From the NCBI GenBank assembly GCA_951812895.1, contig OX638333.1, forward strand, positions 4,134,001-4,198,000: 64,000 nt of DNA, given 5' to 3'. Source of the DNA: an uncultured Roseovarius sp. (GTDB taxonomy: Bacteria; Pseudomonadota; Alphaproteobacteria; Rhodobacterales; Rhodobacteraceae). A program made the translations under genes and the position numbers. The notes beneath the pieces are model-generated. The model was not told where the DNA came from, did not search any database, and worked only from the letters and a program-made list of their open reading frames with translations. This document shows, in pieces, positions 28,220 to 41,346 of the stretch. Position 1 is the first letter of the stretch, and each line of letters begins with the position of its first letter.

Positions 28220-29326
28220 CTACCCACCTGTAACTTCTAAATACAAACGCTCATAGCTGTCACAGATTTTGTCAGAACTGAAGATGCTTGCCAATTGTGA
28301 GCGGGAGGGGATAGTTTCCGGGCCGTCTGAGAGTGTTTTAAAAATTGCACCTGCCAGCGCCTCAGAATTTCCGGGCTCAAACAAATACCCGAATCCAGTA
28401 CGCGAAACAGGCTGGCGCATACCGGGCCGATCGGATGTCACGCATGGTGTTCCTCTCAACATCGCCTCGACCTGAACCAGGCCAAATGCCTCTATTCGAT
28501 TGTTTGATGGCAGAACCAAAACATCAATGTCGTGGTAGAATTGATCAAGTTCCTCATCGCTGACACGCCCTCGAAAGATCACCCGCTCATCTGAATACTT
28601 TGAGACCAGATCGTACATTCCACTTTCAATCGGCCCGACGAATTCAAGGGTAAAATCCGGCCCCAGCTTTGCTTTGAGGGGGTCCAGTGCCTGCAAAAGA
28701 ACTTCAAGCGACTTTTCCGGTGCGATGCGTCCGACAAAACCTATTTTGTAGGGCTTGACTGGTGATCGATACGGAGAGATTTTTTGCGGCCAATTTGGCA
28801 CCGGCACGTCAATAAATTCCAGCTTTTTCCTGAACAGCCGGCAAAACCAGTTTCGGTGTGCATAGTCTTCAGTCGTGGCCACGATTTTACGGGCCAGCAG
28901 CCCGGCAACCAGATGCGATAGCCCACATAACAACGCTGAAAATTTGGAAAGCACATTATCGCCGGTCATCGAGCAATTGTAAGTGATCAATATCGGACGG
29001 CGCCGTAGCCAGGCACATACCGCTGCAGGGGCTGCATCGAACTGGGGCAGCCAGAGATGGACGAGATCGGCGTCTTTCGACAATCGCCAGACCTTGGGCC
29101 CGAACGCCGGTACAAGAGGACCTTTTCCAATATGCGCAATCGGCTTTATCCGATGGATATCTATGGCATGCAATTGCTCATGCGCAGGAAGGTCAGGATT
29201 GTGTTTTGCGGCGATGACCGTCACATCATGCCCTCGAGATGACAAGGCCTTTGTTATCGGCTGAAGTGCGAGAGTTAGGCCGGACAGATGCGGAAAAAAG
29301 AACGTGATAGAATAGAGAATTCTTAT
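28220..29326 (-). CDS. GT4-family glycosyltransferase with apparent AUA start
   Basis: A 368-residue GT-B glycosyltransferase. The C-terminal donor domain has IGFVGRIAPEKSLEVLLQAL, GRVSDEELDQFYHDIDVLVLPS and the EAFGLVQVEAMLRGTPCV signature with the E-x7-E pair. The first usable in-frame ATG/GTG/TTG is a TTG at 29245, but the 27 codons before it encode a perfect GT4 N-terminus (ILYSITFFFPHLSGLTLALQ). This begins at ATA (29324-29326), which sits 7 nt after GGAGG (29334-29338); upstream there is no ATG, GTG or TTG before a TAG. I therefore annotate from the ATA. It is the last gene of the leftward glycan unit. Confidence 0.85.
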   Translation of the reverse strand: MRILYSITFFFPHLSGLTLALQPITKALSSRGHDVTVIAAKHNPDLPAHEQLHAIDIHRIKPIAHIGKGPLVPAFGPKVWRLSKDADLVHLWLPQFDAAPAAVCAWLRRRPILITYNCSMTGDNVLSKFSALLCGLSHLVAGLLARKIVATTEDYAHRNWFCRLFRKKLEFIDVPVPNWPQKISPYRSPVKPYKIGFVGRIAPEKSLEVLLQALDPLKAKLGPDFTLEFVGPIESGMYDLVSKYSDERVIFRGRVSDEELDQFYHDIDVLVLPSNNRIEAFGLVQVEAMLRGTPCVTSDRPGMRQPVSRTGFGYLFEPGNSEALAGAIFKTLSDGPETIPSRSQLASIFSSDKICDSYERLYLEVTGG

Positions 29327-29434
29327 TGCGTGGCCTCCTCTGCCCGAAGTGTCTGTCTGATCACTGTGCCCGGAGCTGACAGTCTATACCGATTGCCCTG
29401 CCCAAGGTAGACCGTATGCAGTATAATCTGCAGA

Positions 29435-30340
29435 TCAGAAAGTTATTGCAAAGGCGACGAAACCAACAATTAACACGAAACAAATCAGGCTTCTTCGATC
29501 TGTTGTGGCGAATATTACGGGGTCATCATGCATTCTTCCGGATGCGGTGGTCTGAAATATGTGTCTGAGCCAAACAATCAGAACCAAACAGATCAGCCAG
29601 AGAAAAACCGGGGTCTGATAAAGCCGTTCTACCGCGGATGAATTGAAATACAGCGCCAGAATAACAACCGATGCGTATCCGGCAATCGTCGCGAACCGCT
29701 CTACAATCGGCAAATGGCGCAGGTGATATCCACGGCCTGAAATGCTTTGGACGTCTGCGCTATCCGCAATATCTCTCAGTTCAGCCAAGCGCTTTACAGC
29801 AGCAAGTGCAAAGAAAATACAGGCTGAAAACAACAACAACCAAACCGATGGCGTGATGGCAGTTGCAGCACCTCCTGCAATAATCCGAGAGGTGTAAAGA
29901 CCAGCCAGAATGCAAACATCCAGATAGACTATGCGTTTAAGAAAGACAGTATAAGCGACCGCCAAAGAAAGATATGCCAACAGGACGACCGAGAAGTAAG
30001 TGCCGAGCCTTGCCGCCGAAACAAACGCTGCTACCAGGAATACCCCCGCACATACAAGGCAGGCCGATCTGGTAATTCGCCCGGATGCCAGTGGTCTGTT
30101 GCGTTTGCGGCTATGGGTTTTGTCGGCGTTGCAATCATACAGATCGTTAAGAAGGTAAACTGCTGATGCAATCAGACTAAACGATACGAAAGCATTGACA
30201 CTGTTGAGCAAGGTGTTTGACGAAACCTGATGTGCCGCGAGCATGGGCAGAAAAACCAACAGATTTTTTACCCAATGATGCGGCCGCGCAGCCTCTAAGC
30301 ACGAGTTGACGAATTGCACGGTTTCTGAGGAGGGTGCCAT
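29435..30340 (-). CDS. UbiA-family polyprenyl-phosphate phosphoribosyltransferase (DPPR synthase-like)
   Basis: A 301-residue polytopic UbiA-family prenyltransferase. The first Asp-rich motif is NDLYDCNADKTHSRKRNRPLASG (shown in part) and the start RPHHWVKNLLVFLPMLA is characteristic of decaprenyl-phosphate phosphoribosyltransferases rather than ubiquinone or haem O enzymes. Such enzymes load 5-phosphoribose from PRPP onto a polyprenyl phosphate, the first step to polyprenyl-phosphate ribo- or arabinofuranose donors. No epimerase partner (DprE1/DprE2) is seen nearby. It lies between the GT4 gene and a GT39-like gene. Confidence 0.82.
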   Translation of the reverse strand: MAPSSETVQFVNSCLEAARPHHWVKNLLVFLPMLAAHQVSSNTLLNSVNAFVSFSLIASAVYLLNDLYDCNADKTHSRKRNRPLASGRITRSACLVCAGVFLVAAFVSAARLGTYFSVVLLAYLSLAVAYTVFLKRIVYLDVCILAGLYTSRIIAGGAATAITPSVWLLLFSACIFFALAAVKRLAELRDIADSADVQSISGRGYHLRHLPIVERFATIAGYASVVILALYFNSSAVERLYQTPVFLWLICLVLIVWLRHIFQTTASGRMHDDPVIFATTDRRSLICFVLIVGFVAFAITF

Positions 30341-30438
30341 AAAGGTGCGTAATCCCGTCGGTATTCCTTAGGTCACTGCAATTTCTTGTTCGTTGTTGTT
30401 GTGAAAATCTTTGTTGACCCGGCTTATTACTCTACGAC

Positions 30439-39962: not shown

Positions 39963-40870
39963 GACGGTTTAGTATCAGAAGCCTGTTAACGGTTGTCGTC
40001 AGCATCGCGGCGCTTTGGCTCGCGTTCAAACTTTCCGATGGCGTGAGCTATTTGCATTTGCCGGCCGAACCATCAGCGGGTTGGCTGCTTTTGGCGATCG
40101 TGCTCCAGATCACGATCATTATGATTTTGAGCTGGCGATGGTTGCTTCTGGTCCGTGGCCTTGAAGTTCAGTCAAGCGAATTGTCCTTTCTGGTTCTGGG
40201 CCAGCTCACCTGGGCCGGAATTGGGCTAAGCCAGATTGCGCTTGGCCCGGTCTCAGCAGATGCGTTGAGGGTTGCAGGGCTGAGAGAGCGCAGGGTTCCT
40301 ATTTCCGAGGGTCTGCGAATTGTATTGGTAGATAGGGTCATTGGTTTGTCCAGCTTGCTTGCTGTGGGCTTGATGGCAATGCTTTGGGTCCTGCCACCAG
40401 CCGATAGTATGTATCTGGCAGCTTTGTTGATTGTTGTAATTTTTCTTGGCACGGCCTGCGCGATTGCACTGTCCAGAGTATTTCGGCCTGTCAAAGCGAT
40501 ACTGGCCAATTTAGGGCATCTTGCAGGGTCACAATTGGGGATTGCGTTGGTGTTTCTTTCAGCGATTGCACATGTTCTAAACATTGCCAGCTATATTTGC
40601 ATCGCGTTTTCAATAGGATTTGCTCCGCCATTGCTGGAAACTGTGGTTTCTGTCGCGATTGGACTGCTGAGCGCAGTTGCCCCGATTACCGTTGGTGGGT
40701 GGGGCGTTAGAGAACTTGCGATCTCACAGGCTTTTCAACTACAGGATGTAATATTTGACGGCGCAATTACCGTCTCTATTCTATTTGGCCTAATGCATAT
40801 TGCTATTGGTATTCCCGGCCTGCTACTATTTGGGTGGCGAAAAGGTGTAAAAATGGGATTTCAATCGTAA
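39959..40870 (+). CDS. Lysylphosphatidylglycerol synthase TM region / AglD-like (UPF0104) membrane protein
   Basis: A 303-residue polytopic membrane protein of the UPF0104 superfamily (flippase-like helices of MprF/AglD), without a soluble catalytic domain. The family motif is visible in [17 protein letters not shown] near the C-terminus. AglD-type proteins act in archaeal N-glycosylation with polyprenyl-linked sugars, which fits the locus: it may flip or handle lipid-linked sugar. The GTG start overlaps the previous stop by 4 bp (GTGA). Confidence 0.82.
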
Positions 40871-40881
40871 ATCGGAAAAAG

Positions 40882-41346
40882 ATGCTTAGGTATTCTGTTG
40901 AAATTTTGGCGAGGCAGTTTGTGCTGCACTTTGTTGCGGCGCTGTTTGCTTTAGTGACGGTATCTGGTAGCGCGATGGCGCAGAGCGATCCGACACCCAC
41001 AGCGACTCCAACACCGGCACCAACGCCAACCACCACTCCTACACCGGCACCGACGGCAACTCCGACACCAACACCAACCGCCACTCCAACACCGACGGCG
41101 ACTCCGACGCCCGCGGCCACGCCGACTCTGATGCCCACGCCATCAACATCACCAACGGGAACGCCTAGGCCGACACGAATGCCATCCGGAAGCCCTACAC
41201 CGGCGGCATCCGGAAGTCCGACACCTGCGAATGTTCCGGTCGTTCCCGGCACAGGTGGCGACGGAACCATTCCATACTATCTCATAGCATTGATTTTGGC
41301 CTTCCTGACACTGCTCCTGTGGGCACGCTCAACTCGGCAAATGTAA
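40882..41346 (+). CDS. Pro/Thr-rich mucin-like surface protein with C-terminal sorting tail (likely exosortase substrate)
   Basis: A 154-residue protein. Residues 1-34 are a signal peptide (cleavage after SAMAQ). Residues 36-118 are almost only Pro, Thr, Ala and Ser in [18 protein letters not shown] repeats, an ideal O-glycosylation stalk. Residues 121-154 form a three-part sorting signal: [11 protein letters not shown], a membrane helix ([17 protein letters not shown]) and a basic end (RSTRQM). There is no folded domain at all. I chose the ATG at 40882, preceded by GGAAAAAG; an upstream ATG at 40834 overlaps the previous gene. It ends the exosortase/glycosyltransferase operon. Confidence 0.85.

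Follow-up and report, generated by a model that had tools for sequence, protein, structure and literature searches.

We analyzed a 64,000-nt stretch of DNA from an uncultured Roseovarius sp. (contig OX638333.1, positions 4,134,001 to 4,198,000; hereafter the window, whose numbering is used throughout), in which a cluster at 28220 to 41346 combines an exosortase (XRT) with a Pro/Thr-rich protein bearing a C-terminal sorting tail and a set of sugar-transfer enzymes. On the minus strand lie genes for a GT4 family glycosyltransferase (28220 to 29245; Pfam PF00534), a UbiA-family protein resembling decaprenyl-phosphate phosphoribosyltransferase (29435 to 30340; PF01040), a GT39-like membrane glycosyltransferase (GT39A; 30439 to 32175), and a UDP-galactopyranose mutase (UGM; 32182 to 33324). 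The plus strand encodes a GT2 glycosyltransferase resembling polyprenyl-phosphate-sugar synthases (33426 to 34142; PF00535), an outer-membrane beta-barrel (34194 to 35288), the exosortase (35295 to 36347), a second GT39-like membrane glycosyltransferase (GT39B; 36319 to 37953), a DUF2298/Chlor_Arch_YYY membrane protein (YYY; 37950 to 39962), an AglD-like/LPG_synthase_TM membrane protein (39959 to 40870; PF03706), and the Pro/Thr-rich protein (40882 to 41346). A first-pass annotation made from the sequence of the window had described this locus; all eleven genes are present, those it named being where it had placed them, with the motifs and spacing it described. Cys75, Arg116, and His135 are present in the exosortase and invariant in ten aligned exosortases (the window's and those of nine relatives), the motif HPDER is present in both GT39-like proteins, and the last five rightward genes overlap or are closely spaced: with open reading frame starts set mechanically, XRT and GT39B overlap by 29 bp, GT39B and YYY as well as YYY and AglD by 4 bp each, and 11 bp separate the end of AglD from the ATG of the Pro/Thr-rich protein.

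The Pro/Thr-rich protein is 154 aa long (ATG at 40882, stop codon ending at 41346) and begins with a signal peptide that, judged by eye, ends in AMA before a Q. Its 80-residue body consists of 33% Pro, 34% Thr, and 9% Ser (75% P/T/S overall), so that its earlier description as a 154-residue, Pro/Thr-only protein with a sorting tail stands for the length and the tail and fails for the composition. The tail (41221 to 41343) comprises an 18-residue stretch, a transmembrane (TM) helix, and the ending WARSTRQM. An alignment of eight tails, from the window and seven relatives, has 13 invariant positions and the consensus TPVxVPVVPGAGGPGGxxPWLL...LLLWARR, i.e., a VPxxPGxGG..P motif followed by a TM helix and a basic end (WARR). 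The exosortase is accordingly accompanied by a cognate target with a signal peptide (by eye) and a C-terminal tail of motif, TM helix, and basic residues. Six NCBIfam rows were obtained for the Pro/Thr-rich protein at E 1, none of them a C-terminal sorting model. The bodies of all eight tail proteins are rich in P/T/S, from 39% in locus L016 to 82%, and their repeats differ. In contrast to the purer repeats elsewhere, the L016 protein (9131 to 9877 of that locus) includes two small segments that contain Cys, possibly a folded part of the stalk.

Relatives of the system were sought in two collections. A search with the window exosortase covered 146 genomes of relatives and found matches in four, one of them the window's own. 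An 84,980-species collection was then scanned with two peptide patterns drawn from four exosortases, a procedure that distant relatives without these patterns escape; nine of the 121 pattern matches encode relatives, which are 30 to 42% identical to the window exosortase in the best segment, and three of them are shared with the 146-genome search. Seven of the nine are labelled Rhodobacterales, Rhodobacteraceae, or member genera, one is a metagenome-assembled genome (MAG) labelled only "Pseudomonadota", and one, L016 (WNWL01000002.1), is labelled Oceanobacillus, a label that looks wrong unless the assembly is mixed. By tblastn with the window proteins, XRT, the barrel, GT39A, GT39B, and YYY occur together in all ten loci (the window and the nine relatives), even though XRT is only 31 to 40% and YYY 38 to 43% identical to the window's proteins in the nine others. 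Recurrence of the set at such low identity is more than chance would produce. The contig of L011 ends inside YYY, and because locus flanks extend to at most 10 kb, remoter accessory genes are invisible. In L010 and L005, which come from one MAG, GT39A and GT39B are each spread over more than one reading frame, through sequencing errors or decay. In L016 the gene order is rearranged, with the tail gene immediately upstream of the exosortase, and the set is retained.

A Pro/Thr/Ser-rich tail protein adjoins this core in 8 of 10 loci (the window and seven of the nine relatives), as found by a search for open frames ending in a TM helix and basic residues; two extra window frames in the resulting list are not targets, and three of its rows are repeats of the same genomes. 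The two loci without a complete tail gene are cut short: the L009 contig ends after the start of the gene and the L011 contig before it. The other enzymes are more irregular. GT4 is encoded in seven of the ten loci, UbiA in three (the window, L012, and L015) with a further fragment match in L013, UGM together with GT2 in two (the window and L016; other GT2 and UGM rows are short, weak matches), and AglD, at E 1e-3, in the same two. UGM, GT2, AglD, and UbiA are accessory genes, and because they come and go between loci, the sugar used by the system probably varies from one locus to another. The furanose-containing stalk that the first-pass annotation had proposed is not sustained by this distribution, and we rejected furanose sugars as a core feature.

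A survey of 394 family genomes from 393 genera gave the same picture. The tail profile, TIGR03662 (the model matched by YYY), and a full-length XRT profile were each found in three genomes, the same three in every case (G000, G087, and G365). A fourth genome, G324, has two adjacent partial matches to the XRT profile, covering the N-terminal half only. The coordinates in G365 agree with those of L013, and the two were treated as one locus, which keeps the total at ten. Across nine loci the pairwise identities of XRT correlate with those of YYY (r = 0.957, from pairs that are not independent), as expected of genes inherited together. The exosortase, the Pro/Thr-rich protein, the GT39 pair, and the DUF2298 protein thus form one conserved unit in Rhodobacterales. 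The first-pass annotation had called for a test of co-occurrence of the exosortase, the Pro/Thr-rich protein, and the DUF2298 protein, and this was positive, with the tail gene adjacent in eight of ten loci and the three found only together in the survey. It had also said that its proposal would fall if the Pro/Thr-rich protein never accompanied this exosortase or if the glycosyltransferases belonged to an unrelated polysaccharide locus in relatives lacking the exosortase; the survey and the ten loci point the opposite way on both counts. The window genome contains one exosortase (by TIGR04178) and one tail match (E 3.9e-20), both in this one cluster, and fits the definition of a dedicated system in PMC3237569, under which a genome has one sorting enzyme and just one target for it.

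The cluster lies on an inserted segment (26759 to 42089) flanked by a PALP gene on one side and an endonuclease/exonuclease/phosphatase-family gene on the other; near its edge the segment carries an IS110-family transposase gene (27023 to 28060). The endonuclease/exonuclease/phosphatase-family gene 3′ of the cluster was found in 12 of 31 genomes searched, the window's included, and the other 11 are all congeners (of 18 congeners searched). PALP adjoins it in all 11, at distances of 11 bp to 1.1 kb, and the two genes are separated by 15.3 kb in the window. Since the flanking genes are adjacent in 11 congeners, either the lineage of the window acquired the cluster or all eleven congeners lost it. 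The GC content of the segment is about 0.50, versus 0.55 to 0.61 in the flanks. The gene set appears to be horizontally acquired. Two congeners, G068 and G077, also carry the cluster, and their exosortase is about 35% identical. We rejected the idea that these genes are common on plasmids: XRT and GT39B had no match in 72,556 plasmid records, and DUF2298 had one distant match, within a polysaccharide-type cluster on a Pseudobutyrivibrio plasmid. Elsewhere in the window, 48624 to 52848 is a second low-GC stretch (about 0.48) with two putative DNA methyltransferases (SPPY motifs, by eye) and, on the opposite strand, a putative phospholipase-D-type nuclease (by eye); it is possibly a restriction or defence island.

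The window exosortase has 350 residues, more than twice the length of the XrtH model (158 positions). Residues 15 to 154 match XrtH (TIGR04177) with 54.2 bits, under the cut-off of 86, and parts of them also match XrtX and XrtM; the window protein has the best XrtH E-value of the ten members. The exosortase/archaeosortase superfamily model TIGR04178 is matched above its cut-off by the window protein (38.6 versus 23 bits) and at E 0.01 or better by all ten. For comparison we aligned 18 XrtH proteins from other proteobacteria. The Cys/Arg/His triad is invariant in the ten members and in all 18 XrtH proteins; its surroundings are CDGxG and HxxxxP in every member versus CNGxE and HxxxxQ in every XrtH. 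Because the neighbors of the triad differ without exception, we assign XRT to a separate class next to XrtH. A sequence search of the PDB returned no match for XRT up to E 1, and Foldseek of the whole XRT model against the PDB gave a best E of 0.43 and none at 0.001, so no solved exosortase serves as a yardstick.

The remaining residues, from about 156 to 350, are what set this protein apart in length. A known Pfam domain was considered for this C-terminal half and rejected, as a Pfam scan of the ten exosortases up to E 1 yielded one row, an irrelevant SpoIIE_N match (E 0.13). The model NF041730 ("exosortase H-associated membrane protein"), whose family is present in 4 of the 319 genomes searched from the phylum and in 19 of 150 from one family, matched one of the ten whole proteins (E 5.3e-5). 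We built a profile from 20 of these XrtH-associated proteins, excluding one weak NF041730 match under the cut-off (L053). At 18 of the 20 loci the associated gene immediately follows an XrtH frame of the same strand, which is also the order of the two halves in the fusion. Profile–profile comparison of the 20 associated proteins with the ten C-terminal halves gave a score of 36.5 over 151 columns (P 6e-5; the profile P-values given here hold for single comparisons). As controls we used 23 overlapping pieces of the GT39A, GT39B, and YYY profiles, against which the associated profile scored at most 25.1 and the C-terminal halves at most 21.9. These profiles indicate that XRT is very likely an XrtH-like catalytic domain (residues 1 to 154) fused to a homolog of the XrtH-associated protein (residues ~156 to 350).

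Several observations suggest that the associated family, and with it the C-terminal half, is itself exosortase-like. A profile of the ten N-terminal halves and 18 XrtH proteins aligned with the 20 associated proteins over 128 columns with a score of 31.7 (P 4e-4), where the 23 membrane-protein pieces gave at most 18.9 and the reversed profile 10.3. One associated protein, L034, matches the profile of exosortase N-terminal halves by itself (E 0.0022), a direct hint in the same direction. The AlphaFold2 model of XRT is confident, with a mean predicted local distance difference test score (pLDDT) of 90.9, and by our own reading of its element list the order of two helices, three strands, a short helix, and three helices (HH-EEE-h-HHH) occurs twice, in residues 2 to 154 and in residues 156 to 348, the second time with an extra hairpin. 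Neither the catalytic Cys nor the catalytic Arg is matched: in the column aligned to Cys75 by way of the associated family, the C-terminal halves have Asp in six and His in four of ten, and none of the 20 associated proteins has a Cys opposite Cys75 or an Arg opposite Arg116. On the profiles and the confident model, we think it somewhat likelier that the C-terminal half is a degenerate exosortase without the Cys and the Arg than that it is not.

There is also evidence against these readings. The NF041730 match is below the cut-off, confined to one of the ten members, and absent from the window protein; against C-terminal halves it reached 17.1 bits (cut-off 35) in one of six scanned, the window's half being among the five without a match, and the window's own genome had no NF041730 match at 0.001. 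The associated profile scored 25.1 and the C-terminal half 21.9 with pieces of GT39A, versus 36.5 with each other. Direct hhalign of N-terminal against C-terminal halves was not significant (score 17.1, P 0.08), XrtH against the C-terminal half found nothing (P 0.65), and the N-terminal halves with XrtH against the C-terminal half gave P 0.09; because these half-to-half comparisons are not significant, a duplication rests on the associated family as an intermediate and on our reading of the topology. His325 is invariant in the C-terminal halves and aligns with Gln in 19 of the 20 associated proteins, so it is not necessarily left over from the catalytic His. An unrelated membrane domain, binding the acceptor lipid or acting as a chaperone, and resembling an exosortase in element order by coincidence, would account for the failed direct comparisons and for the Gln opposite His325, and the Foldseek search of the PDB at E 0.001 supplied no independent fold yardstick with which to counter it. 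Against it stand the repeated topology in a model of such high pLDDT and the score of the N-terminal half and XrtH profile with the associated family, well beyond the controls and the reversed profile. We consider this account unlikely, though a serious contender; under it the fusion with a homolog of the XrtH-associated protein still stands.

The neighboring proteins were scored against family models. YYY is above the cut-offs of PF10060 (287 versus 27.8 bits) and TIGR03662 (365 versus 300), UGM above that of TIGR00031 (324 versus 304 bits), the barrel above that of PF03797 (45 versus 26 bits), and GT39B above that of the PMT_2-type family PF13231 (30.4 versus 26.1 bits). GT39A is slightly under the cut-off of the PMT family PF02366 (21.3 versus 22.7 bits), and the UbiA-family protein is below those for decaprenyl-phosphate phosphoribosyltransferase (343 versus 351 for PRK08238 and 144.5 versus 207 for PRK12324.1-4). 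GT39A and GT39B are mutually homologous by profile alignment (hhalign 3e-41), and YYY, considered as a candidate GT-C glycosyltransferase, matches the GT39 profiles weakly (hhalign P 0.02 to 0.03). GT39 is the protein O-mannosyltransferase family, in agreement with the Pfam names of the cluster matches. The mature N-terminus of the barrel, directly after the signal peptide (by eye), reads N(V/I)PGS in the window and in the seven relatives displayed. The VPG in the tail of the target (NVPGG in L016) is similar to it, a likeness that may be due to chance or to recognition of both by the sorting enzyme.

The gene set conserved between loci, the tail, the one-to-one pairing, and the insertion can all be read directly from the DNA and its translations, and we lean toward the view that together they make up a self-contained, horizontally moving module dedicated to sorting and decorating one protein. 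For cleavage, glycosylation, the acceptor, and the role of the barrel we infer the following scheme. The Pro/Thr-rich protein would be exported by its signal peptide and retained in the inner membrane by its tail. GT4 and the accessory enzymes would make polyprenyl-linked sugars, which the two GT39-like enzymes and the DUF2298 protein would transfer in the periplasm onto the Thr/Ser-rich stalk. The N-terminal domain of the exosortase, with Cys75, Arg116, and His135, would then cut at VPxxPGxGG, before the TM helix, and the stalk would be handed to an acceptor. The fused C-terminal domain, probably a degenerate exosortase, may complete the enzyme by holding the substrate or the acceptor, and the outer-membrane barrel may help the product to reach, or stay on, the cell surface.

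Exosortases often lie near polysaccharide genes, and the sugar enzymes of the cluster could serve polysaccharide synthesis in place of stalk decoration. The cluster would then be an exopolysaccharide (EPS) locus with a protein anchor: a surface polysaccharide or lipid-linked glycan would be built or modified by the GT39 pair, DUF2298, and GT4 and tethered by the exosortase-processed Pro/Thr-rich protein, which would itself carry few glycans or none; such a tethering role has been proposed for PEP-CTERM proteins. The Pfam PMT_2 family also includes lipid-modifying enzymes, and the one plasmid-borne DUF2298 match lies in a polysaccharide-type cluster. According to PMC12188702 and PMC1569441, exosortases usually lie at EPS loci and PEP-CTERM proteins stabilize surface EPS. 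Two further points weaken the proposed module: the AlphaFold2 model of YYY is poor (pLDDT 56.8), so that its fold is not established, and the stalk body of L016 is P/T/S to a mere 39%. Pfam and NCBIfam-type scans of the eleven cluster proteins, however, matched no Wzx, Wzy, or chain-length-type family, and a P/T/S-rich body (39 to 82%) is kept in all eight tail proteins despite their differing repeats. Overall we rate an EPS locus with a protein tether as rather improbable. A chance juxtaposition of the exosortase and an unrelated glycan locus within a mobile island, for which the inserted state of the cluster and the bordering IS110-family gene might speak, was rejected as very unlikely, being contradicted by the core shared by ten loci at low identity and by the survey, where full-length exosortase, tail, and DUF2298 occur only together.

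Returning to a module that sorts and decorates its own stalk, its closest known counterpart is XrtH (TIGR04177) with its associated protein NF041730. The N-terminal half is nearest to XrtH, with the same Cys, Arg, and His, and the C-terminal half is homologous to the associated protein, in the same order of enzyme and partner; in contrast, the window system is a single fused protein that stays below the XrtH cut-off, with CDGxG and HxxxxP in place of CNGxE and HxxxxQ. XrtH targets are of the IPTL type, unlike the VPxxPGxGG tail of the window family. The PEP-CTERM/EpsH (XrtA-type) system, as PMC1569441 and PMC12188702 describe it, likewise joins a membrane Cys-Arg-His enzyme to a glycosylation-prone target with a signal peptide and a tail of motif, TM helix, and basic residues, with sugar genes nearby. 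The window tail lacks the PEP motif, however, the target is the only one in its genome, and the GT39 pair and DUF2298 take the place of an EPS polymerization set. In the mechanism proposed in PMC1569441, exosortases use Cys, Arg, and His to cleave the tail on the outer side of the inner membrane and then hand the protein over, and PMC12188702 describes exosortase targets as rich in glycosylatable residues and as stabilizing surface polysaccharide. Archaeosortase A of Haloferax, an archaeal relative, couples substrate processing to lipid anchoring (PMC7157517); the likeness is in the mechanism of the family and the difference in its being archaeal. In Flavobacterium johnsoniae, deletions of XrtF and of the adjacent associated protein share the loss of biofilm and colonization (PMC10936215), a precedent for an essential partner protein; like the window enzyme, XrtF has a partner, encoded there by a separate adjacent gene and not fused.

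A literature search covering titles and the starts of abstracts found no paper on this gene set among the matches listed. We describe the system as an exosortase with a fused partner, its own tail, and private sugar-transfer enzymes; the fusion, the conserved tail motif, and the insertion go beyond what the first-pass annotation had proposed. A stronger formulation, which we put forward tentatively, at a little under an even chance, is a new class made up of a catalytic exosortase in tandem fusion with a dead one and serving a single mucin-like, O-glycosylated stalk from a mobile cassette with its own glycosyltransferases and barrel. If the tandem with a dead exosortase is real, the separate exosortase H-associated protein would be a pseudo-exosortase subunit, and such exosortases would work as heterodimers. 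To our knowledge, neither the acceptor of bacterial exosortases nor the reason why some of them have partner proteins is known, and through the fusion the uncharacterized partner family NF041730 gains a concrete role that can be put to the test. The strict linkage gives DUF2298, found in just two of the papers searched, a biological setting. With one enzyme, one target, and few core genes on one insertion, the cassette lends itself to deletion or transfer as a whole in an ordinary environmental bacterium, and it is a compact candidate for a system by which some aquatic bacteria build and sort a surface stalk coated with sugars.

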